Of a stretch of DNA of 64,000 nucleotides, positions 19,933-29,308 are shown in pieces (positions within the stretch are counted from its first letter, which is position 1; each line of letters starts with the position of its first letter). The position numbers and the translations under genes were made by a program. The notes beneath the pieces are model-generated. The model searched no databases and was not told the origin of the DNA. It saw only the letters and a list, made by a program, of their open reading frames with translations. This DNA comes from Polaribacter sp. L3A8 (GTDB taxonomy: Bacteria > Bacteroidota > Bacteroidia > Flavobacteriales > Flavobacteriaceae), in assembly GCF_009796785.1 (NCBI RefSeq), contig NZ_CP047026.1, positions 806,001-870,000 on the forward strand. The letters run 5' to 3'.

Positions 19933-20020
19933 TTATTAATCTCTTTTATAATTCAAAAAAAAACATTCCTTTGGCATAATAATTGTTTAATATTATTATT
20001 TTTTAATAAAAATAACTACT

Positions 20021-20509
20021 ATGAAAAAACTTTATGTATTTCTTTTAATTGTTACCACTTTATCATTATCTAACTGCAGTAAAGAAGACATTGACGCTAG
20101 ATATACAATAGATGATTTACAAAAAATCCATGGAAATAGCTCTAAAAAATGGAAAGTTGAAGCTTTTTACAAAACCTATGAAAATGATGTCCTCAGCGAA
20201 TTTAATGAATGTTATACCGATGATGCATACACTTTTTTCTACGATACAAATGAAGCTCAAGTAACACTTGGTAATATTTCTTGTTACTACGATAACCCAA
20301 CAGAACAAGACGGTCGTTTAACTTATAACTTCTACGAAGATACAGGTAAAATTTTCATCAATATTTCTAAAGGAGAAAGTCTTGATGAAAATTTTAGAAA
20401 TATGCTTACTATTCTTAGTTTAGAAGAACTTAGTGAAAATAGAATGGTTTTTACAGGAGGTGAATCTCCATATTATGGAAAAACTTTAGTCTTTACAGCA
20501 ACTCCGTAA
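20021..20509 (+). CDS. Small lipoprotein, lipocalin-like
   Basis: The 162-residue protein has a lipoprotein signal (SLSNCSK, Cys near residue 19). The body has repeating beta strands (KKWKVEAFYKTYENDVL, YTFFYDTNEAQVTLG, RMVFTGGESPYYGKTLVFTATP), as in flavobacterial lipocalin-like lipoproteins. Ligand and role are unknown. It converges on hisIE with only 16 bases between stop codons and no obvious terminator. Confidence 0.65.
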   Translation: MKKLYVFLLIVTTLSLSNCSKEDIDARYTIDDLQKIHGNSSKKWKVEAFYKTYENDVLSEFNECYTDDAYTFFYDTNEAQVTLGNISCYYDNPTEQDGRLTYNFYEDTGKIFINISKGESLDENFRNMLTILSLEELSENRMVFTGGESPYYGKTLVFTATP

Positions 20510-20525
20510 AAGTTGTAAAAAAAGG

Positions 20526-21125
20526 TTATTTATGTCTACCTTTCAACTCTTCTTCAATATCTTTTAAAGTAAAGCCTTTTGCCTGTAACAACATTAAGTA
20601 GTGAAACATCAAATCTGCAGATTCATATAAAAATAACTCGTCGTTATTATCCATCGCTTCAATTACAGTTTCTACTGCTTCCTCACCTACTTTCTGAGCT
20701 ACTTTATTAATTCCCTTTGCAAATAAACTTGCTACATAAGATTTTTGAGTATCCTTATTAGCAACTCTTTCTGTAATTACATCTTCTAAAGTAGAAAAGA
20801 AACCATAATTAGACTTATTTTCTTCATTCCAACACGTATCAGAACCTTTATGGCACGTTGGTCCGTTTGGGTTTACAGAAACTAATAAAGTATCATTATC
20901 ACAATCTAGTTTTATATCAACTAAATTTAACACATTTCCACTTTCTTCTCCTTTTGTCCATAAACGTTTTTTAGTTCTAGAAAAGAAAGTAACTAATTTT
21001 GTTTCTTGTGTTTTAGCAAAAGCTTCTTCATTCATATACCCCAACATCAACACATTTTTTGTAGTTGCATCTTGAATGATTGCGGGTACTAAACCGTCGT
21101 TGTTTTTATTAAAATCGATATTCAT
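20526..21125 (-). CDS. hisIE: Phosphoribosyl-AMP cyclohydrolase / phosphoribosyl-ATP pyrophosphatase
   Basis: A bifunctional enzyme for the second and third steps of histidine synthesis, 199 residues. The HisI half (about 1-105) has LGYMNEEAF, SRTKKRLWTKGEESGN and the zinc site LDCDNDTLL ... GPTCHKGSDTCW. The HisE half (about 115-199) has SYVASLFAKGINKVAQKVGEEAVETVIEA, ESADLMFHYLMLL and a helical C-terminus. It is the last gene of the operon. A 14-bp palindrome separates it from hisF. Confidence 0.96.
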   Translation of the reverse strand: MNIDFNKNNDGLVPAIIQDATTKNVLMLGYMNEEAFAKTQETKLVTFFSRTKKRLWTKGEESGNVLNLVDIKLDCDNDTLLVSVNPNGPTCHKGSDTCWNEENKSNYGFFSTLEDVITERVANKDTQKSYVASLFAKGINKVAQKVGEEAVETVIEAMDNNDELFLYESADLMFHYLMLLQAKGFTLKDIEEELKGRHK

Positions 21126-21149
21126 AATTTTTATTTTATTTGTCTCCTC

Positions 21150-21186
21150 GAGCGCAGTCGAGAGGTTATTGTTCTCGACTGCGCTC
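21150..21186. repeat. Palindromic repeat, CTCGACTGCGCTC family, full copy
   Basis: GAGCGCAGTCGAGA (21150-21163) and TCTCGACTGCGCTC (21173-21186) form a perfect 14-bp inverted repeat with a 9-base loop in the hisIE-hisF gap. A single arm recurs at 26312-26329, and a diverged form at 67-85. Confidence 0.8.
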
Positions 21187-21195
21187 TAACTGACA

Positions 21196-21951
21196 TTACA
21201 ATCTCACTGGAATGTTATTCTTTTTTAACTCTTTTTTTAATTCTAAAATAGGAATTTCTCCAAAGTGAAAAACACTTGCTGCCAAAGCTGCATCTGCTTT
21301 ACCTTCTTTAAAAGTATCTACAAAATGTTGTACAGTTCCTGCGCCACCAGAAGCAATAATTGGTATATTTAATTCTTCGGATAATTTAGCCAAAGCCTCA
21401 TTTGCAAAACCAGATTTTGTACCATCATTATTCATAGAAGTAAACAAAATTTCTCCTGCTCCTCGATTTTCAACTTCTTTTGCCCATTCAAATAAATTAA
21501 GCTCCGTTGGTATTGTTCCGCCTGCTAAATGTACCGTCCATTCTCCATCAATTTGTTTTGCATCTATAGCAACAACCACACATTGACTTCCAAATTTTTC
21601 TGCCAATTCATTTACCAAATCTGGTCTTTTTATGGCAGATGAATTAACAGATACCTTATCTGCGCCCCATTTTAACAACTCATTTACATTTTCTATAGAT
21701 GATATTCCTCCACCAACTGTAAACGGAATATTTACTTGTTCCGCAACCTGATGTACCATTTCAATCATGGTTTTTCTACCTTCTAACGTTGCAGAAATAT
21801 CTAAAAAAACCAATTCGTCTGCACCTAAATCTGCATATTGCTTTGCTAAAACTACAGGATCTCCTGCATCTATTAAATTTACGAAATTAACACCTTTTAC
21901 AGTTCTTCCGTTTTTAATATCTAAACAAGGTATTATTCTTTTTGTTAACAT
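21196..21951 (-). CDS. hisF: Imidazole glycerol phosphate synthase cyclase subunit
   Basis: HisF pairs with HisH to turn PRFAR plus ammonia into imidazole glycerol phosphate and AICAR. It is a 251-residue TIM barrel. [18 protein letters not shown] carries the first catalytic Asp (residue 11), [14 protein letters not shown] the second, and FTVGGGISS and IIASGGAGT bind the two phosphates. Typical length, ATG start. A 64-base palindrome fills the gap to hisA. Confidence 0.97.
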
Positions 21952-21964
21952 TTTATTCTAATTC

Positions 21965-22028
21965 GTCATTGCGAGGCACGAAGCAATCTGTCAATTAATT
22001 AAGAGATTGCTTCGTTCCTCGCAATGAC
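21965..22028. repeat. Palindromic repeat, CATTGCGAGG family, copy 1
   Basis: Left arm 21965-21989 begins GTCATTGCGAGG and ends CGAAGCAATCT. Right arm 22004-22028 is its near-perfect reverse complement (one mismatch). It fills the hisF-hisA gap to within 2 bases of the hisA stop. Diverged copies are at 23298-23376 and 27849-27912. Confidence 0.85.
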
Positions 22029-22030
22029 AT

Positions 22031-22768
22031 TTATTTTGTTAATATAAATTGTTCTATTTGTTTTAAGCTAATTTTATTCTCATAAATCGCTTTTCCTATA
22101 ATAACACCTTCGCAACCATTTTCTGCTAATCTAGGAAGCTCATCAAAAGCAGAAATTCCTCCAGAAGCAATTAATTTTACGTTATTTACTTCAGATAAAA
22201 TCTGCTGATAGATATCAAAACTTGGCCCTTGTAACATGCCATCTTTAGAAATATCTGTACAGATAATATACTGAATTCCTTTTTGTTGATATCCTGTAAT
22301 AAACGGAATTAATTCTAAACTACTTTCTTCTTGCCAACCATTGGTTGCAATTTTTCCACCTGAATTATCAGGATAAAAATCTGCTCCTAAAATAATTTTT
22401 TCTGAGCCATATTTTTCAATCCAACTTTCAAAAATCTCACTATTTTTAACAGCAATACTTCCTCCAGTAATTTGATTTGCACCAGAATTAAAAGCAATTT
22501 CTAAATCTTTATCAGACTTTAAACCACCACCAAAATCAATCTTTAAATTGGTTTTTGATGCAATTTGTTCTAATACTTTATGATTGATAATCTGGCTCGC
22601 TTTTGCACCATCTAAATCTACAACATGTAAATACTCGATACCTGCAGCTTCAAATTCTTTGGCAACTTCTAACGGATTTTCGTTATAAATCTTCTTGGTA
22701 TTGTAATCGCCTTTTGTTAAACGAACACATTTTCCGTCAATAATATCTATGGCTGGTATTATTCTCAT
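22031..22768 (-). CDS. hisA: ProFAR isomerase (HisA)
   Basis: HisA opens the ribose ring of ProFAR by an Amadori rearrangement. The 245-residue TIM barrel has [17 protein letters not shown] with catalytic Asp8, [27 protein letters not shown] with the second catalytic Asp, and [13 protein letters not shown]. The start was placed at 22768. The longer frame to 22849 only adds residues encoded by the low-complexity repeat in the gap. Confidence 0.97.
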
Positions 22769-22771
22769 TTT

Positions 22772-22853
22772 TTTGTTTGGTTTTTGGTTTTTAGTTTTTG
22801 GTTGGTGGATATATATATCTACAAACAACCATAAACCAATAACTATCAACTAA
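22772..22853. repeat. GT/AC-rich imperfect palindrome, hisA-ridA gap
   Basis: A TTTGGTTTTTGGTTTTTAG-type arm and an arm of ACAAACAACCATAAACC-type sequence flank the 12-bp palindrome GATATATATATC (22808-22819). On the mRNA strand an A/C-rich stretch of CCAAAAA units lies directly before the hisA start. A related element fills the hisH-hisB gap. Confidence 0.6.
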
Positions 22854-23234
22854 CTACTTGTTTAATGCAGTAACTTGAATTTCTATTTTCATTCTTGGAT
22901 CAGACAATCCTGCTGCAAACATAGTAGCTGCGGGTCTAACTTCTCCTAAATACTTCTTTAAAACAGGCCAACATTGTTCAAACTCTGTAGCATCAGGTAA
23001 AATATAAGTGATGCGTACAATATTACTCATACTAGAACCTGCTTGCTCTAAAACACCTTCAATGTTTTTTAAACATTGCTCTGTTTGGTTTACAACATCA
23101 TCTGCAATCGTCATATCCTCATAATTGAAACCTGTTGTTCCAGAAACAAAAACCCAATCACCTTGCACTACAGCTCTAGAATATCCCATTTCTTTTTCGA
23201 ATGAAGAACCTGAACTTATTAATTTTCTTGCCAT
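22854..23234 (-). CDS. RidA/YjgF-family protein
   Basis: The 126-residue protein has the Rid family layout: SRAVVQGDWVFVSGTTGFN, VNQTEQCLKNIEGVLEQAGSSMSNIVRIT and PAATMFAAGLSDPRMKIEIQVTAL. The Arg of the RPAAT segment normally binds the substrate carboxylate in RidA, which hydrolyses reactive enamine/imine intermediates. RidA proper has a downstream Glu that is also visible (KIEIQV). Its position between hisH and hisA is unusual and suggests it is co-regulated with histidine synthesis. Its substrate is unknown. Confidence 0.9.
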   Translation of the reverse strand: MARKLISSGSSFEKEMGYSRAVVQGDWVFVSGTTGFNYEDMTIADDVVNQTEQCLKNIEGVLEQAGSSMSNIVRITYILPDATEFEQCWPVLKKYLGEVRPAATMFAAGLSDPRMKIEIQVTALNK

Positions 23235-23297
23235 AATTAATTTTTTATTATTTATCCTGAATTTATTTCAGGGTCTTTTTATTATATATTTATCTCT

Positions 23298-23376
23298 GTC
23301 ATTACGAGGAACGAAGTAATCTCATCATTAAAAACGAGATTCCTCAATCGCCCAAAAAGGCTCATTTCGGAATGAC
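23298..23376. repeat. Palindromic repeat, CATTGCGAGG family, copy 2 (diverged)
   Basis: It begins GTCATTACGAGGAACGAAG and ends CATTTCGGAATGAC. The interior is enlarged compared with copy 1, with the segment CAATCGCCCAAAAAGG inserted. It occupies the ridA-hisH gap. Confidence 0.7.
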
Positions 23377-23388
23377 AATCAACTTCGT

Positions 23389-23970
23389 TTATAAATTAAG
23401 GAAGTTTTGTAAAATTTTTGCGCCTTCTACTCCACTCTTTTCTGGATGAAATTGTACTCCGTAAAAATTATCTTTTTGCAATGCAGATGCATATTCAATT
23501 TCATAATCTGTGGTTGCAATTGCTTCAGCACAAGATTCTGCATAGAAACTATGTACCAAATACATAAATTCTTTTTCTTTGATACCTGTAAATAAATCTG
23601 ATTTTAAATCATAAATAACATTCCAACCCATTTGCGGAACTTTTACAGCTTTAGAAAATTTCTTTACATCAACATCAAAAATACCCAAACCTTTTGTGTT
23701 TCCTTCCGAAGAAGAATTACACATTAATTGCATTCCCAAACAAATACCCAAAACAGGTTGTTTTAATGTAGGAATAACTTTGTCTAAGCCGCTTTCTTGC
23801 AACATTTGCATGGCAGAACTTGCTTCGCCAACTCCTGGGAAAATAATTTTATCTGCAGCTCTTATTTCATCAATATTATTTGATAAAATAGCCTCTACAC
23901 CTAAACGTTTAAAAGCAAACTGAATGCTTTTAATGTTTCCTGCTCCGTAATCGATAATTACTAATTTCAT
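23389..23970 (-). CDS. hisH: Imidazole glycerol phosphate synthase glutaminase subunit
   Basis: HisH releases ammonia from glutamine and channels it to HisF. The 193-residue class I glutaminase shows DYGAGNIKSI at the start, an oxyanion strand FPGVGEA, nucleophile Cys77 in GICLGMQLM, and the His-Glu pair in QFHPEKSG (His175, Glu177). Typical length. Confidence 0.97.
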   Translation of the reverse strand: MKLVIIDYGAGNIKSIQFAFKRLGVEAILSNNIDEIRAADKIIFPGVGEASSAMQMLQESGLDKVIPTLKQPVLGICLGMQLMCNSSSEGNTKGLGIFDVDVKKFSKAVKVPQMGWNVIYDLKSDLFTGIKEKEFMYLVHSFYAESCAEAIATTDYEIEYASALQKDNFYGVQFHPEKSGVEGAKILQNFLNL

Positions 23971-23974
23971 TCTT

Positions 23975-24050
23975 TTGGTTGTTGGTTATTCGTTTTTGGT
24001 TGTTGGTTGTTGGTTGTGTACTAATTACCATCAACTAAAAACTAACAACT
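23975..24050. repeat. GT/AC-rich imperfect palindrome, hisH-hisB gap
   Basis: Repeated GGTTGTTGGTT units on the left and CATCAACTAAAAACTAACAAC on the right can pair imperfectly. It is similar in style to the element at 22772-22853. On the mRNA strand CCAACAA units precede the hisH start. Confidence 0.55.
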
Positions 24051-24053
24051 ATT

Positions 24054-25193
24054 CTATAAAACTCCTTTTGTAGATGGTAAAAACATTTTATTTGCATCTC
24101 TTTTAACTGCCATTTTCATTGCTTTTGCAAAAGCTTTAAAAATACCTTCTATTTTATGATGCTCGTTTGCGCCTTCTGCTTTAATATTTAAGTTACATTT
24201 TGCGCCATCGGTAAACGATTTAAACAAGTGTAAAAACATTTCTGTTGGCATATCTCCAACCATTTCTCTTTTAAAATCAGCCTCCCAAACTAACCAAGGT
24301 CTTCCGCCAAAATCTACAGCTGCTTGTGCCAAACAATCGTCCATTGGCAAGCAAAAACCATAACGTTCAATGCCTAATTTATTTCCTAATGCTTTGTGAA
24401 ATAACTCGCCCAAAGCAATCATGGTATCTTCTATCGTATGATGTTCATCTACCTCTAAATCTCCATCAACTTTTACAGTTAAATCCATCGCTCCATGACG
24501 ACCAATTTGATCTAACATGTGATCGAAAAACTTTACTCCCGTAGAAATATCATTTTTACCAGAACCATCTAAATTTAGTTTGATATAAATCTTAGTTTCG
24601 TTGGTATTTCTGGTGATTTCAGAAACTCTATCTTCTAACTTTAAAAACTCATAGATCTCTTTCCAATCTGTACTTGTTAAAGCAATACAATCTAAAATTT
24701 CTTGTTTAGAAGTTTCTATTTCATCAGCACCTAATTCTGGGTCTTCTGATAAGAAAATTCCTTTTGCTCCTAAATTTTTAGCCAATTCCATGTCGGTAAT
24801 TCTATCACCTAAAACAAAAGAATTTACCAAGTCATATTCTTCAGAAAAATATTTGGTTAACAAACCAGTTCTTGGTTTACGAGTTTCTGCATTTTCATGC
24901 GGAAAAGTTTTATCAATACAAACTTCAGAAAAAACAACCCCTTCTTTTTCAAAAGCAGTTATAACTTTATTTTGTGCTGGCCAAAAAGTATCTTCTGGAA
25001 AAGAAGCTGTTCCCAAACCGTCTTGATTGGTAACCATTACCAATTCGTACTCTAATTCGCTAGCAATTTTTGCCATGTATTGAAATACTTTCGGATAAAA
25101 TTCTAACTTTTCTAAACTATCTAATTGATAATCTACAGGTGGTTCTAACACCAAGGTTCCGTCTCTATCTATAAATAATACTTTCTTACTCAT
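24054..25193 (-). CDS. hisB: Histidinol-phosphatase / imidazoleglycerol-phosphate dehydratase
   Basis: A bifunctional enzyme of 379 residues. The N-terminal HAD-type histidinol phosphatase (about 1-165) begins [15 protein letters not shown] with the nucleophile Asp, then [10 protein letters not shown] and [15 protein letters not shown]. The C-terminal IGP dehydratase (about 185-379) has the metal-binding motifs [16 protein letters not shown] and [19 protein letters not shown], plus [16 protein letters not shown]. The fusion is the same as in enteric bacteria and common in Bacteroidota. Confidence 0.97.
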
Positions 25194-25209
25194 CTTATCT
25201 TGTTTTCCT

Positions 25210-25230
25210 GCAAGGTTTTAAAAACCTTGC
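25210..25230. repeat. Short palindrome, hisB-hisC gap
   Basis: GCAAGGTTTT (25210-25219), one base, AAAACCTTGC (25221-25230): a perfect 10-bp inverted repeat. A related CAAGGTT...AACCTTG element is at 27645-27663. Confidence 0.7.
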
Positions 25231-25240
25231 GATAGTATTC

Positions 25241-26302
25241 TTATTGTTTTTTAATAGCTTTTAATGCTCTTAATAATCTTTGGTTTTCTTCGCAAATACC
25301 TACACTTATACGCAAGCAATTTTTACACAATGGTTGTGTAGTTCTATTTCTAATAACCACACCATATTCTATTAATTGGTTGTAACGCTTTGTAGCATCA
25401 TCTACCTTTAACAGCAAAAAATTACCGTCTGATGGAAATACTTTTTCTATATAACTATCGCAGCTTTCTAACTCTTTTTTAAGTCGTTTTCTTTCGCTAA
25501 TTAATTGAGAAATTTCGTTTTGAACTTCATCTATTTTTTGCAACCTTTCAATTGCTCTTTGCTGACTTAATTCGTTTACGTTATATGGTGGTTTTATGTT
25601 GTTTAAAATTTTAGTAATTTCTTTGGATGCATAACAAACTCCCAAACGAATACCTGCTAAACCAAAGGCTTTTGATAAAGTTTGCGTTATGATTAAATTA
25701 GGAAATTCGGCTAACCTTTCTAACCAGCTTTTTTGCTCAGAAAAATCGATATACGCTTCATCTATAACCACTAAACCTTTAAATTTTAAAAGTAATTCTC
25801 TAACAGATTCTACCGTAAAACTGTTACCTGTTGGGTTGTTAGGCGAACATAAAAACAAAATTTTACTATGTGCATCTGCACTTTTTAAAATCTGGGCTAC
25901 TTTTGGCTGAAAATCATCACTTAATAATACCTCTCTGTTTTCTATAGCATTTATATTTGCCAAAACACTATACATTCCGTAGGTTGGTGGTAATGTAATT
26001 ACATTGTCTACATTAGGCTCACAAAAAGCTCTGTAGATTAAGTCTAAAACTTCATCACTTCCGTTACCTAATAAAATATTTTCTTTAGAAACTCCTTTTA
26101 TCTCAGACAACAAATCTTTTACATTATTCTGTTGTGGATCTGGATAGCGATTTACACCGTTTTCGAAAGGATTTTCATTAGCATCTAAGAAAATCATTTC
26201 TTTTGTATTGGCATCTTCATACTCATCTCTTGCAGATGAATATGGTTTTAGAGATTTTATATTTTCTCTAACTAGGCTACTTAAGTTAAATTTAGTTTTC
26301 AT
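25241..26302 (-). CDS. hisC: Histidinol-phosphate aminotransferase
   Basis: A PLP-dependent class I/II aminotransferase of 353 residues that makes histidinol phosphate from imidazole-acetol phosphate. Motifs are LDANENPFENGVNRYPDP, LGNGSDEVLDLIYRAFC, FLCSPNNPTGN, VIDEAYIDFSE and the Schiff-base lysine in TQTLSKAFGLAGIRLG. The start was set at 26302: the in-frame extension to 26335 reads through the palindromic repeat at 26312-26329 and would add SSRAQSRG-type residues. Confidence 0.96.
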   Translation of the reverse strand: MKTKFNLSSLVRENIKSLKPYSSARDEYEDANTKEMIFLDANENPFENGVNRYPDPQQNNVKDLLSEIKGVSKENILLGNGSDEVLDLIYRAFCEPNVDNVITLPPTYGMYSVLANINAIENREVLLSDDFQPKVAQILKSADAHSKILFLCSPNNPTGNSFTVESVRELLLKFKGLVVIDEAYIDFSEQKSWLERLAEFPNLIITQTLSKAFGLAGIRLGVCYASKEITKILNNIKPPYNVNELSQQRAIERLQKIDEVQNEISQLISERKRLKKELESCDSYIEKVFPSDGNFLLLKVDDATKRYNQLIEYGVVIRNRTTQPLCKNCLRISVGICEENQRLLRALKAIKKQ

Positions 26303-26311
26303 AACAAAACC

Positions 26312-26329
26312 TCTCGACTGCGCTCGAGA
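26312..26329. repeat. Palindromic repeat, CTCGACTGCGCTC family, half copy
   Basis: TCTCGACTGCGCTCGAGA contains one arm of the element at 21150-21186, here in the hisC-hisD gap. Confidence 0.7.
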
Positions 26330-26343
26330 AGACATTTAATATA

Positions 26344-27627
26344 TTATTTTAAATCTTTTAAACGAATTGAAACTGCATTTTTATGTGCATCTAATCCTTC
26401 TGCTGCTGCCATTAACTCAATAGACTTTCCTATTGTTTTAATACCTTCTTTTGTAATTTTCTGAAACGTAATACTTTTGGTAAAACTATCTAAATTTACC
26501 CCTGAATACGATTTAGAAAATCCGTTTGTTGGTAAGGTATGGTTTGTACCTGATGCATAATCTCCTGCACTTTCTGGTGTATAATTACCTATAAAAACAG
26601 AACCTGCGTTTTCTATATTGTCTATGTAAAAATCATTATTATTTGTACAAACAATAAAATGTTCCGGACCATATTCATTAATTAACTCTAACGCTATTTC
26701 ATCATTTTCTACAAAAATAGACTTTGAATTTTGAATGGCTTTCTGAGCAATTTCTACTCTAGATAATTTAGCCAACTGAATTTCAATTTCCTTTTCTACT
26801 TTAGCAATCATTTCTTTTGATGTGGAAACCAAAACAACCTGACTGTCTGCGCCATGTTCTGCCTGACTTAATAAGTCTGACGCTACATAACTTGCATTTG
26901 CAGAATTATCTGCAACTACTAACAATTCACTTGGGCCAGCAGGCATATCTATAGCAACACCATGTTTTGTAGACAATTGTTTTGCCACTGTTACATACTG
27001 ATTTCCTGGACCAAATATCTTATAAACTTGCGGAATGGTTTCTGTACCAAATGTATACCCTGCAATTGCCTGTATACCACCTACTTTTATAATTTTTGTA
27101 ACACCACAAAGATTTGCTGCATATAAAATTGCTGGATGAATTTTACCTTCTTTATTTGGAGGAGAACACAATACAACTTCTTTACAACCTGCAATTTGAG
27201 CAGGAATAGCCAACATTAATACTGTAGAAAACAAAGGTGCTGTGCCTCCTGGAATATACAAACCAACTTTTTGAATTGGTCTTTTTTCTTGCCAACAAGA
27301 AACTCCGTTTACCGTTTCTACAAAAACTTTTGTTGTTTTTTGCGCTTCGTGAAACTTTGTAATATTGTCTTTAGCAACATTAATTGCTTCCTTTAATTCG
27401 TTAGAAACTAAAGTAATTGCTTCTTTTATTTCATTAACAGAAACAATATTGCTTTGTAAAGAAACACCATCAAACTTTTGAGTGTATTTCTGTACAGCTG
27501 CATCTCCATTTTCTTTGATATCAGCAAAAACATCATTTACAATACCTTCTATATCATCAACCGTTTTTGTGGGTCTTTCTAATATTTTATTCCAATCTTT
27601 TCTTGATGGGTTTATAATTGTATTCAT
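26344..27627 (-). CDS. hisD: Histidinol dehydrogenase
   Basis: A zinc-dependent NAD enzyme of 427 residues that oxidises histidinol twice to histidine, the last step. Recognisable stretches are VGLYIPGGTAPLFSTVLMLAIPAQIAGC, GGIQAIAGYTFGTE, FGPGNQYV, DMPAGPSELLVVAD, LLSQAEHGADSQ, EYGPEH and the active-site segment AGDYASGTNHTLPT. Typical length and ATG start. Confidence 0.97.
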   Translation of the reverse strand: MNTIINPSRKDWNKILERPTKTVDDIEGIVNDVFADIKENGDAAVQKYTQKFDGVSLQSNIVSVNEIKEAITLVSNELKEAINVAKDNITKFHEAQKTTKVFVETVNGVSCWQEKRPIQKVGLYIPGGTAPLFSTVLMLAIPAQIAGCKEVVLCSPPNKEGKIHPAILYAANLCGVTKIIKVGGIQAIAGYTFGTETIPQVYKIFGPGNQYVTVAKQLSTKHGVAIDMPAGPSELLVVADNSANASYVASDLLSQAEHGADSQVVLVSTSKEMIAKVEKEIEIQLAKLSRVEIAQKAIQNSKSIFVENDEIALELINEYGPEHFIVCTNNNDFYIDNIENAGSVFIGNYTPESAGDYASGTNHTLPTNGFSKSYSGVNLDSFTKSITFQKITKEGIKTIGKSIELMAAAEGLDAHKNAVSIRLKDLK

Positions 27628-27644
27628 AATCTATTTTTCTCCTT

Positions 27645-27663
27645 CAAGGTTGCTAAAACCTTG
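27645..27663. repeat. Short palindrome near the hisD start
   Basis: CAAGGTT (27645-27651), 5 bases, AACCTTG (27657-27663). It lies within 20 bases upstream of the hisD ATG and is related to 25210-25230. Confidence 0.55.
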
Positions 27664-27733
27664 TAGGTGTTTTACTTTTTAATTTATACTTACAGAGTTC
27701 TTTAAACCTTGCAGTATGTTTGCAAACTTGCCA

Positions 27734-27821
27734 TTTGCGTTAGGGATTGTAGCATTTGTTTGAGCTCTTTTTTCTTTTTCAGAAAAAAAGCGAGTGCGAA
27801 AAGCCCGTTAAAACGCCCAAA
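27734..27821. repeat. Dispersed intergenic repeat, copy 2
   Basis: It reads TGCGTTAGGGATTGTAGCAT, then TTGTTTGAGCTCTTTTTT, CAGAAAAAAAGCGAGTGCG and AAAGCCCGTTAAAACGCCC. The central part matches 7-64 at the left window end. The outer ends GCGTTAGGG and CCCGTTAAAACGC are partly complementary, giving a cruciform-like unit. Confidence 0.65.
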
Positions 27822-27848
27822 ATAGTATTCTAATTTTAATTTTTATCT

Positions 27849-27912
27849 GTCATTACTAGGTACGAAGCAATCTCTTACTTAAAACACAGGTTGCTTTGTG
27901 CCTCGCAATGAC
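27849..27912. repeat. Palindromic repeat, CATTGCGAGG family, copy 3
   Basis: The left arm GTCATTACTAGGTACGAAG and right arm TTTGTGCCTCGCAATGAC are imperfect complements. It ends 7 bases before the hisG stop at 27920. Confidence 0.75.
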
Positions 27913-27919
27913 GTACGTT

Positions 27920-28777
27920 TTACAATACCATTTTTTCGATAGGGCAAACTAAAATACCTTCTGCTCCGTTGGCTTTTAATTCATCTATAATTTCCCAAAA
28001 TTCATTTTTACTAATTACAGTGTGCACAGAACTCCAACCTTTTTCTGCCAATGGCAAAACAGTAGGACTTCTCATACCTGGTAACAAGTTTAAAATAGCA
28101 TCTAGTTTATCATTAGGTGCATTTAACAACACGTATTTAGAGTTTTGTCCTTTTAAAACGGATTGAATTCTAAACTGAATTTTCTCTAAAATGGCTCTTC
28201 TTTCTACTGATATTTTAGAAGAAACGGCTAATACAGCTTCTGACGTTAGTAAAACCTCTATTTCTTTTAAACCATTTTTAAATAAAGTGCTTCCACTAGA
28301 AACAATATCACAAATACCGTCTGCCAACCCAATATTTGGTGCAATTTCTACAGAACCGTTTATAATGTGAATATCTGCCTTAATATTTTTTTCTTTTAAA
28401 AACTTTTTTACCGTTTCTGGATACGAAGTTGCAATTCTTTGTCCGTCTAAATCTTGTAACGAATTTGCATTCGATTCTTTTGGCACCGCAATAGAAACCT
28501 TACATTTAGAAAAACCTAAACGTTCTACAAACTCTATATCTGCTCCTTTTTCTATTAAAACATTCTCTCCAATAATGGCAGCATCTACTACTCCATCTTT
28601 TAAATATTGAGGAATATCGCCATTTCTAAGATAGAAAACTTCTACAGGAAAATTTCTTGCGGATGCTTTTAATTGATCTTTTCCGTTGTCTATTGAGATT
28701 CCGATATCTTTTAAGATATTCATTGAATCTTCATTTAATCTTCCTGACTTCTGTACTGCAATTCTTAAATTACTCAT
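27920..28777 (-). CDS. hisG: ATP phosphoribosyltransferase, long form
   Basis: HisG condenses ATP with PRPP, the first and feedback-inhibited step of histidine synthesis. The 285-residue length marks the long form with a C-terminal ACT-like regulatory domain (about residues 210-285). Motifs are LRIAVQKSGRLNEDSMNIL, GDIPQYLKDGVVDAAIIGENVL, ATSYPETVKKFL and the PRPP loop GLADGICDIVSSGSTL. The start was set at 28777 because MSNLRIAV is the conserved N-terminus. It is the first gene of the operon, preceded by an attenuation leader. Confidence 0.97.
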   Translation of the reverse strand: MSNLRIAVQKSGRLNEDSMNILKDIGISIDNGKDQLKASARNFPVEVFYLRNGDIPQYLKDGVVDAAIIGENVLIEKGADIEFVERLGFSKCKVSIAVPKESNANSLQDLDGQRIATSYPETVKKFLKEKNIKADIHIINGSVEIAPNIGLADGICDIVSSGSTLFKNGLKEIEVLLTSEAVLAVSSKISVERRAILEKIQFRIQSVLKGQNSKYVLLNAPNDKLDAILNLLPGMRSPTVLPLAEKGWSSVHTVISKNEFWEIIDELKANGAEGILVCPIEKMVL

Positions 28778-28816
28778 TTTTGTTTTTGTTTGATGCCTGA
28801 GCAAATACGGTTTAAA

Positions 28817-28852
28817 ATTAAAAAAACCCGTTTGATTTGCTCAAACGGGTTT
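28817..28852 (-). terminator. Attenuator terminator in the his leader
   Basis: On the minus strand AAACCCGTTTGA (28852-28841), loop GCAAA, TCAAACGGGTTT (28835-28824) forms a perfect 12-bp stem followed directly by a T-rich run (28823-28817 and beyond). It ends about 46 bases before the hisG ATG, between the His-rich leader peptide and hisG, as expected for transcription attenuation. Confidence 0.85.
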
Positions 28853-28882
28853 ATAAATATCTTGATTTTATTCAATACACTT

Positions 28883-28939
28883 TTAAATCGCTTGACTGCA
28901 ATTGTAAAAATGATGATGATGGTTTTGAATAAATGTCAT
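28883..28939 (-). CDS. His operon leader peptide
   Basis: An 18-codon ORF starting with ATG encodes MTFIQNHHHHFYNCSQAI, with four consecutive CAT histidine codons at 7-10. It lies 31 bases before the terminator hairpin and about 105 bases before hisG. In attenuation, scarce His-tRNA stalls the ribosome at these codons and lets transcription continue into hisG. TTTATTCAA inside the leader (28933-28925, mRNA sense) is perfectly complementary to TTGAATAAA just past the stop (28875-28867). That pairing spans the His codons and would be opened by a ribosome there. The exact antiterminator was not resolved. A His run of this kind is unlikely by chance in this position. Confidence 0.85.
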   Translation of the reverse strand: MTFIQNHHHHFYNCSQAI

Positions 28940-28958
28940 GTCTTGTTTATTTCTTTGG

Positions 28959-28991
28959 CAAATATCAAAATTTTATTTTTAATAATACAAA
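28959..28991 (-). promoter_or_regulatory. Candidate his operon promoter
   Basis: On the minus strand TTTG (28991-28988), 21-base spacer, GATATTTG (28966-28959): a 7/8 match to TAnnTTTG, 20 bases before the leader-peptide ATG. Confidence 0.45.
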
Positions 28992-29269
28992 CTATTCACT
29001 TAAAAATTAGTTTTAATGTTAATATTTATCAGTTTTTAATTTTTTGTTTGATTTTACAACTCTCATTTTTTGATTTTTTAATAAATGACAATAAAAACAA
29101 AACATTCTGTAATTAGCATACCTATAAAACCAACTCATATTTAAACATTACCTATAATCCTATCAATTTAAAACAAGACGCTATTGCACAATCGTTTCAG
29201 AAACATCTTTTGAACTCAAAAATCTACCGCCAATAGTCTTTATAAAACGGATACATGGATTAGAAGCAC

Positions 29270-29277
29270 TATTTTTG
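29270..29277 (+). promoter_or_regulatory. -7 box for the MBL-fold gene
   Basis: TATTTTTG, an exact TAnnTTTG match 31 bases before the ATG at 29309. No clear -33 TTG. The rest of the 28992-29269 gap has nothing recognisable. Confidence 0.45.
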
Positions 29278-29308
29278 ATGAAAATTGCAATGCATCAATT
29301 TAAATAAA

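Follow-up and report, generated by a model that had tools for sequence, protein, structure and literature searches.

The 64,000-nucleotide stretch of DNA analysed here (the window) carries on its minus strand a his operon that starts with hisG and comprises seven further his genes (Table 1). A Rid-family (Ribonuc_L-PSP) gene at 22854-23234 lies inside the operon between hisH and hisA, and the hisF-hisA and hisG-hisD gaps hold a dispersed repeat, CGTCATTGCGAG(G), at 21964-22029 and 27902-27913; CGTCATTGCGAGG has 21 exact copies in the genome, against none for the reversed control. Upstream of hisG, an earlier note on this DNA had described an 18-residue peptide with four consecutive His residues, a 12-bp hairpin with a T-run and a complementary pair of stretches within and behind the leader. 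All three were recovered: the leader ORF MTFIQNHHHHFYNCSQAI contains four CAT codons in a row, the hairpin AAACCCGTTTGA/TCAAACGGGTTT (28852-28824) forms 12 pairs and is 46 bases away from the hisG ATG, and the pairing between TTTATTCAA and TTGAATAAA covaries among relatives. Folding of the RNA that spans leader ATG and T-run (28818-28939) gave -32.0 kcal/mol, compared to -13.5 ± 2.6 kcal/mol for shuffled RNA (z = -7.1), and none of 200 dinucleotide shuffles equalled this value. Further upstream lies a promoter-like sequence, a TTTG that matches the -33 box of Bacteroidota promoters, followed by GATATTTG. The latter is close to the Bacteroidota -7 consensus TAnnTTTG (PMC9723704), with the first T replaced by G. 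Of 279 distinct loci, 71 have an exact TAnnTTTG motif at a distance of 8-35 nt upstream of the leader start, compared to 10 of 279 after shuffling.

Table 1 Features of the his leader region and operon in the window (arms and regions named as in the text).
Feature	Position	Strand	Remarks and basis
Promoter-like sequence	28959..28991	-	TTTG 28991-28988 and GATATTTG 28966-28959; read directly
Leader ORF MTFIQNHHHHFYNCSQAI, 18 codons	28883..28939	-	ATG at 28939, TAA at 28885-28883
Region 1, TTTATTCAA	28925..28933	-	codons 3-5, directly 5' of the His run; partner is region 2; covariation, folding
Four His codons (CAT x4)	28910..28921	-	sensing codons; read directly, conserved in relatives
Arm X, TCAAGCG	28889..28895	-	over the Gln-Ala codons; antiterminator 5' strand; partner 28847-28841; comparison, folding
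Region 2, TTGAATAAA	28867..28875	-	partner is region 1; overlaps hairpin P2; covariation, folding
Hairpin P2	28855..28882	-	28882-28872 with 28865-28855; predicted within the antiterminator; alignment, folding; weak outside the window's arm type
Arm E, terminator 5' arm AAACCCGTTTGA	28841..28852	-	common to X, arm 4 and D; read directly, double changes, folding
Terminator loop	28840-28836	-	read directly
Arm 4, terminator 3' arm TCAAACGGGTTT	28824..28835	-	T-run 28826-28820; read directly, double changes, pattern scan
Element D, ATTTGCTCAGGC	28795..28806	-	12 nt complementary to E and terminator loop; ends 17 nt 5' of the hisG ATG; shuffles, swaps
hisG	27920..28777	-	first gene of the operon; ATG at 28777
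hisD, hisC, hisB, hisH, Rid-family gene, hisA, hisF, hisIE	20526..27627	-	remaining operon; gene annotation

The hisG upstream regions of relatives, whose alignment the earlier note had proposed, were gathered as 206 loci from the genus and named relatives (L001-L206) and 158 loci from the family and class (L207-L364), where class refers to the GTDB class, which we take to be Bacteroidia. As named loci partly repeat others, the 364 loci include duplicates, and counts of distinct loci are given where stated. The closest named relatives belong to Polaribacter (Flavobacteriaceae), with a HisG identity of 92%. In 202 of the 206 genus and named loci, hisG was preceded by an ORF that starts with ATG and has three or more His codons; the other four have a leader with a single His codon (L042), lie at contig ends (L052, L074) or have a non-ATG leader start (L126). 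When at least three His within 8 residues were demanded, an ATG-started ORF of this kind occurred in 60 of 60 sampled genus and named loci (1.7% of shuffles) and in 144 of 158 family and class loci (3.6% of shuffles). At least four His within 8 residues were encoded in 51 of the 60 and 114 of the 158 loci, the latter rising to 116 with GTG and TTG starts, and in none of the shuffles. Allowing GTG and TTG starts at the threshold of three, a leader was present in 352 of 364 loci, this threshold being a loose one that 3-5% of shuffles also pass. A predicted short ORF with a run of cognate codons is a regular feature upstream of hisG in this sample. A Shine-Dalgarno-like motif was not found in 277 of 279 distinct leader loci.

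An intrinsic terminator is positioned between this leader and the first structural gene. Within the window, a pattern scan of positions 20000-29300 returned 8 terminator-like sites (3.8 expected), among which the hairpin before hisG has the longest stem. Among the relatives, a hairpin of -8 kcal/mol or lower in front of a T-run followed the leader in all 203 genus and named leader loci (0/203 in shuffles) and in 131 of 149 family and class leader loci, adding up to 334/352 compared to 0/352 in shuffles, and four pairs of the stem exhibited double (compensatory) changes. We also looked for relatives devoid of both peptide and terminator, which would speak against attenuation; most relatives carry both. 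The leader was not found in three loci of family f42 (L360, L361, L363). Six loci of family f39 (L355-L359, L362), at a guess Bacteroidales, have His-rich ORFs with a terminator that was not found or an X:E match (see below) that is nearly nil, and may use another mode. Outside the class, five of 78 matching genomes were examined; three had no such leader, and two (L383, L385) had a His-rich ORF followed by a hairpin and T-run, which is a weak indication.

Regions 1 and 2 (TTTATTCAA:TTGAATAAA) were paired in 81.0% of the alignment cells among 49 diverse sequences, compared to at most 50.9% in slid registers. The covariation score of 0.181, for which relatedness is not controlled, was higher than in shuffled alignments (0.071; 0/500) and slid registers (at most 0.107). 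Double-changed cells numbered 25 compared to 8.4 after shuffling (0/500), with one slid register giving 23, and the count of pairs with a double change, five, was not above that of shuffles (4.6). Compensated examples are AAT with ATT (L096), ACT with AGT (L038) and ACG with CGT (L148); in some loci, such as L101, the pair is lost. In the other design classes, too, a segment that begins just 5' of the start codon and ends with the His run pairs with the sequence behind the stop; for the four classes, this pairing was equalled by at most 3 of 60 shuffles in 181/228, 10/13, 14/31 and 18/30 loci. Between stop codon and terminator, a further hairpin, P2, was paired in 90.9% of the cells with modest covariation. 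Since P2 and region 2 have bases in common, P2 and the 1:2 pair are mutually exclusive. P2 was more than 1 kcal/mol more stable than shuffles in 193 of 228 loci of the window's class and in 7/13, 12/31 and 10/30 loci elsewhere, and is clear in the window's class only.

The earlier note could not identify an antiterminator arm. We found a matching one in the last codons of the leader itself, TCAAGCG (arm X), which sits one codon before the stop and pairs with CGTTTGA of the terminator 5' arm (arm E). Leaders of the family mostly end in ...QA[I/N/K/S/R], and their end codons usually read NTCARGCG (GTCAAGCG in the window; 162 of 173 distinct loci), a sequence complementary to CGTTTGA(G) of the terminator 5' arm and loop. 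This peptide end is apparently conserved because the RNA arm X must match E. In L029, L172 and L223, the Gln codon has turned into a stop inside arm X, so that the leader peptide is shortened, and the letters of the arm are kept. At least eight contiguous X:E pairs were present in 162 of 276 distinct loci, compared to 6.2% of shuffles, and the last paired base was located 4 nt 5' of the first base of the stop codon in 183 of the 241 loci with at least six pairs. Of the distinct loci, 124 of 140 in L001-L206 and 87 of 136 in L207-L364 had an X:E duplex energy that at most 5 of 100 shuffles equalled; in the remaining 49 of 136, more shuffles did so. His run and arm X also keep their distance: the distance from the end of the run to the 8-mer arm downstream is 13 nt in 134 of 162 distinct loci (the 11 of the 173 loci with other end codons being dropped from this count), and 13 nt is about the reach of a ribosome as given by its footprint length. 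With assumed footprint lengths, a ribosome at the His codons leaves X free, and one at the stop codon covers it.

Within the family, X:E was paired in 95.9% of the alignment cells and covariation was not found; X and E are almost fixed inside the family, and the alignment therefore gives no covariation signal for this pair. A ninth pair, formed with a loop base, was present in 111 of 232 loci compared to 86 ± 6 after shuffling, and for the eighth pair the covariation sought was absent (173 compared to 171 of 232), relatedness being controlled in neither count. Swaps between design classes of different lineages are a stronger test of X:E than the within-family alignment. There, the terminator arm GGCTTACC goes along with the leader end GGTAAGC or similar, and the terminator arm CGTCTGAG with CTCAGGC. 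X combined with E of its own design class yielded -11.9 to -12.3 kcal/mol in the three named classes, compared to -7.1 to -10.6 kcal/mol across classes; for the GGCUU class, the values were -12.3 within and -7.4 to -10.1 across. A mixed remainder class had no common X:E partner (-8.1; own pairs -10.7). X:E is a pairing that uses the terminator 5' arm and excludes the terminator, with covariation between lineages and none within the family alone.

The RNA was then folded with an assumed ribosome footprint masked and with none, half or all of arm 4 included. With half of arm 4, the window RNA strongly preferred the 1:2 pair when no ribosome was present (P(1:2) 0.92, P(X:E) 0.01) and formed the terminator only, with a P(X:E) of 0, when the ribosome was at the stop codon. 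When the ribosome was placed on His codon 1 or 4 to represent stalling, X:E formed with P2 inside (P(X:E) 0.97 and 0.96). Folding with and without a stalled ribosome had been suggested by the earlier note. Before arm 4 was added, X:E was preferred in the ribosome-free RNA as well (0.85), and at full length the terminator won in every ribosome state. As X:E is favoured early and the terminator wins at full length, the switch must be kinetic and decided during RNA synthesis. The same procedure was applied to 302 distinct loci whose terminator follows the stop codon at a distance of 8-60 nt, 243 of them with the window's arm type (an arm with GTTTGA, GTCTGA, GTTCGA or GCTTGA) and 59 with others. 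With half of arm 4, the antiterminator exceeded 0.5 in the stalled state in 226/243 window-type and 36/59 other loci, compared to 0/243 and 2/59 in the stop state and 32/243 and 7/59 without a ribosome. Shuffling of X reduced this number to 9 of 120 in the stalled state. In the stop state, the terminator exceeded 0.5 in only 197 of 243 window-type and 36 of 59 other loci.

Taken with the anatomy, conservation, covariation and folding described so far, the locus is very probably a ribosome-mediated (leader-peptide) transcription attenuator of the his operon of the classical kind, in line with the attenuation reading of the earlier note, which gains support from conservation, 1:2 covariation and the X:E antiterminator. 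RNA polymerase would transcribe the leader with a ribosome following, given that ribosome and RNA polymerase are coupled in Bacteroidota as we assume. When charged His-tRNA is scarce, the ribosome would halt on the His codons, where it would cover region 1 and leave X free, so that the 1:2 hairpin could not form. The emerging arm E would then pair with X, with P2 folded in between, the terminator would be blocked and the operon transcribed. When histidine is plentiful, the ribosome would move on to the stop codon, which lies one codon beyond X, and would cover X, so that E would pair with arm 4; most likely, the switch ends transcription under these conditions. If no ribosome is present, the long 1:2 hairpin would enclose X, favouring the terminator once half of arm 4 has been made. 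From this arrangement we infer co-transcriptional timing, dependence on His-tRNA, read-through into hisG and a response to histidine starvation.

A further element, D, lies between the terminator and hisG. Loci of the window's arm type comprise the family and six class or order loci outside it. Among 239 distinct loci of this type, 193 had a match of D to E and the whole loop that was better than in 38 or more of 40 shuffles; of 48 loci with other arm types, 3 did. A strong D match occurred in 190 of 235 loci compared to 17 after shuffling, and in 160 of these 190 loci D ended 13-19 nt 5' of the ATG. As A/T-rich linkers of variable length would misalign D, it was tested by swaps and not by pair-by-pair alignment. 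A complement to TTGA, loop and TC was present in 167 of 274 own loci, compared to 64 ± 5 when the locus was exchanged for one with another loop. When each of 55 loops was represented by a single random locus, the complement was found in 17-21 own compared to 4-10 other loci, and 29 of the 55 loops were without such a complement. Judged by these swaps, D follows the sequence of the terminator loop. In leaders of other operons, D was sought and seen in 0 of 13 pheA and 1 of 19 ilvD loci.

What D does may be one of several things: candidate roles are a translational layer, an action of the terminated leader in trans, or a lock. In cis, E:D usually falls short of the terminator hairpin in stability by about 2-6 kcal/mol (median 3.8; window 1.0). 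Among 188 loci chosen in advance for a strong duplex, E:D surpassed the terminator in 11, and it is a weak candidate for the resting state in cis. Pairing of D mainly with the hisG start codon was rejected as well, since out of 224 loci the own match beat 29 or all 30 swaps in 51, compared to 132 for E:D. In some clades, D fits E and the hisG start alike, so that its effect may even be of either sign. As a tentative model, to which we give less than even chances, arm E and the loop may constitute a hub in Flavobacteriaceae for which X, arm 4 and D compete. The attenuator would then be two-layered: either E:D, acting in cis on transcripts extending beyond the terminator, determines how accessible the hisG start is, or D is bound in trans by terminated leader RNA via the exposed loop of the latter. 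If this is true, an attenuator of the leader-peptide type in which one and the same strand also governs how the first gene is translated would be new to us.

Other explanations of the locus have to account for the same observations. The hairpin might be a fixed terminator that ends an upstream transcript or insulates hisG, next to a His-rich ORF arisen by chance, and terminator-like hairpins are indeed common here, with 8 sites in 9.3 kb. However, peptide, X, 1:2 pair and terminator co-occur, and their pairs covary, in most class loci examined. Such a chance peptide was also rejected because shuffles seldom (at least three His) or never (at least four His within 8 residues) yielded an ORF of this kind, and we consider the combination highly improbable. 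We likewise consider it very unlikely that an RNA-binding protein, a T-box or a riboswitch acts on the hairpins with the peptide being incidental. Sub-threshold matches to PyrR (E 0.005), PyrG_leader (E 0.006) and trpB (E 0.07) do cover the terminator region, but their scores (32.7 compared to 54 bits, 32.9 compared to 65 and 26.5 compared to 59, respectively) are all under the curated cut-offs. No known Rfam family reached the cut-off over the leader region; in the whole window two tRNAs alone did so, and there was no T-box or riboswitch match at the gathering threshold. RF00514, which we take to be the enteric histidine operon leader of Rfam, was absent from the gathering-threshold matches and from the 30 matches with E-values of 10 or lower. 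From one design class to another, the His codons and the plan of the arms remain the same.

The position of D close to the hisG start and its dependence on the loop would also suit a switch that mainly acts on hisG translation rather than on termination, with E holding or releasing D. Against this, terminator and T-run are kept in nearly all leader loci, including lineages without D, and the terminator hairpin usually outcompetes E:D in cis by the margin given above, so that we give this explanation very little credence. We also rejected a fixed operator in the DNA as a substitute for pairing in the RNA, because X and E, as well as loop and D, change their letters together. Transcription attenuation by a translating ribosome remains our reading of the locus, with D, if functional, as a second level of control.

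The his and trp leaders of E. coli and Salmonella are among the closest known systems. Like these, the leader studied here has a leader peptide with cognate codons, a 1:2 hairpin, an antiterminator, a terminator with a T-run and the first his gene downstream. Unlike these, its antiterminator strand is located inside the last codons of the leader, it gives no match to an Rfam operon leader at the cut-off and it has the additional arm D before hisG; a Shine-Dalgarno-like motif is missing in nearly all loci. For D alone, the trp leader of Bacillus subtilis is an analogy: there, a single leader governs termination as well as access to the start of the first gene, the driver being the TRAP protein and not a stalled ribosome. 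Some attenuators in Bacteroidetes were reportedly predicted by Vitreschak and others in 2004 (FEMS Microbiol Lett).

The enteric his and trp attenuators are described in the portion of PMC9413887 considered here, which also places his-leader attenuators in Firmicutes lineages; hisS and hisZ leaders are covered in PMC2965389. Our leader resembles those of the Firmicutes in its three to five His codons and in a terminator and alternative antiterminator found by comparison; the phylum is different, and the likeness is one of description. A transcriptome study of 2021 (PMC9723704) reported that hisG of Flavobacterium psychrophilum and other Flavobacteriaceae is preceded by a structured 5' element; gene and family are the same as here. 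Its section on 5' cis-regulatory RNAs names no arms, antiterminator, class-wide distribution or D, and its supplement (Table S7, SI D9) may hold more. A map of B. thetaiotaomicron mentions sORFs reminiscent of leader peptides (PMC7366714), and a his-gene survey of the superphylum, in the portion considered, names attenuation once, for enterics (PMC8305728). Already known are thus the attenuation principle and the presence of an element before flavobacterial hisG. The arms, the antiterminator, the class-wide covarying plan and D of a Bacteroidota his leader were not recognised in any description within the open-licence literature found.

Leaders of other operons were found in the same genome. 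Directly 5' of pheA, a Phe/Tyr-rich leader, MLNNYFTCFYFYFYFFSKRGDFVTCC, is followed by a terminator (L365:1900-2240 (-); G000:C1 near 2389745-2390281), and the leader end GAGACTTT matches AAAGTCTC of this terminator. An Ile/Val-rich leader, MKKQILNSISIIIVIVIITT, with a terminator is located 174 nt 5' of ilvD (L366:3150-3550 (-); G000:C1 near 2571812-2573428); an X:E-like match of ilvD in this genome was no better than in shuffles. Before trpE (L367/L368), no Trp leader was seen with a scan for at least four of one residue in 10, which would miss two or three Trp. In samples made up of the own genome and the 30 (pheA) or 29 (ilvD) best-scoring among at most 39 further genera of the family, leader and terminator were present in 30 of 31 pheA and 19 of 30 ilvD loci, with an X:E-like match in 27 of 30 and 8 of 19, respectively. 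Covarying arms in many lineages of the class indicate that classical ribosome-timed attenuation is common for his and, in one family, phe operons of bacteria without a Shine-Dalgarno motif at the leader. This makes testable how tightly ribosome and RNA polymerase are coupled in Bacteroidota and how a leader ORF starts in time without Shine-Dalgarno pairing.

Some individual loci depart from the common layout. L008, L021, L043 and L050 have an additional 60-85 bases between terminator and hisG with a small repeat hairpin (GTCATTC...GAATCT or similar). In L042, the leader MTFIQNYHRFYNCSQAI is retained together with the arms and has a single His codon; this locus is perhaps a switch that is losing its sensor.
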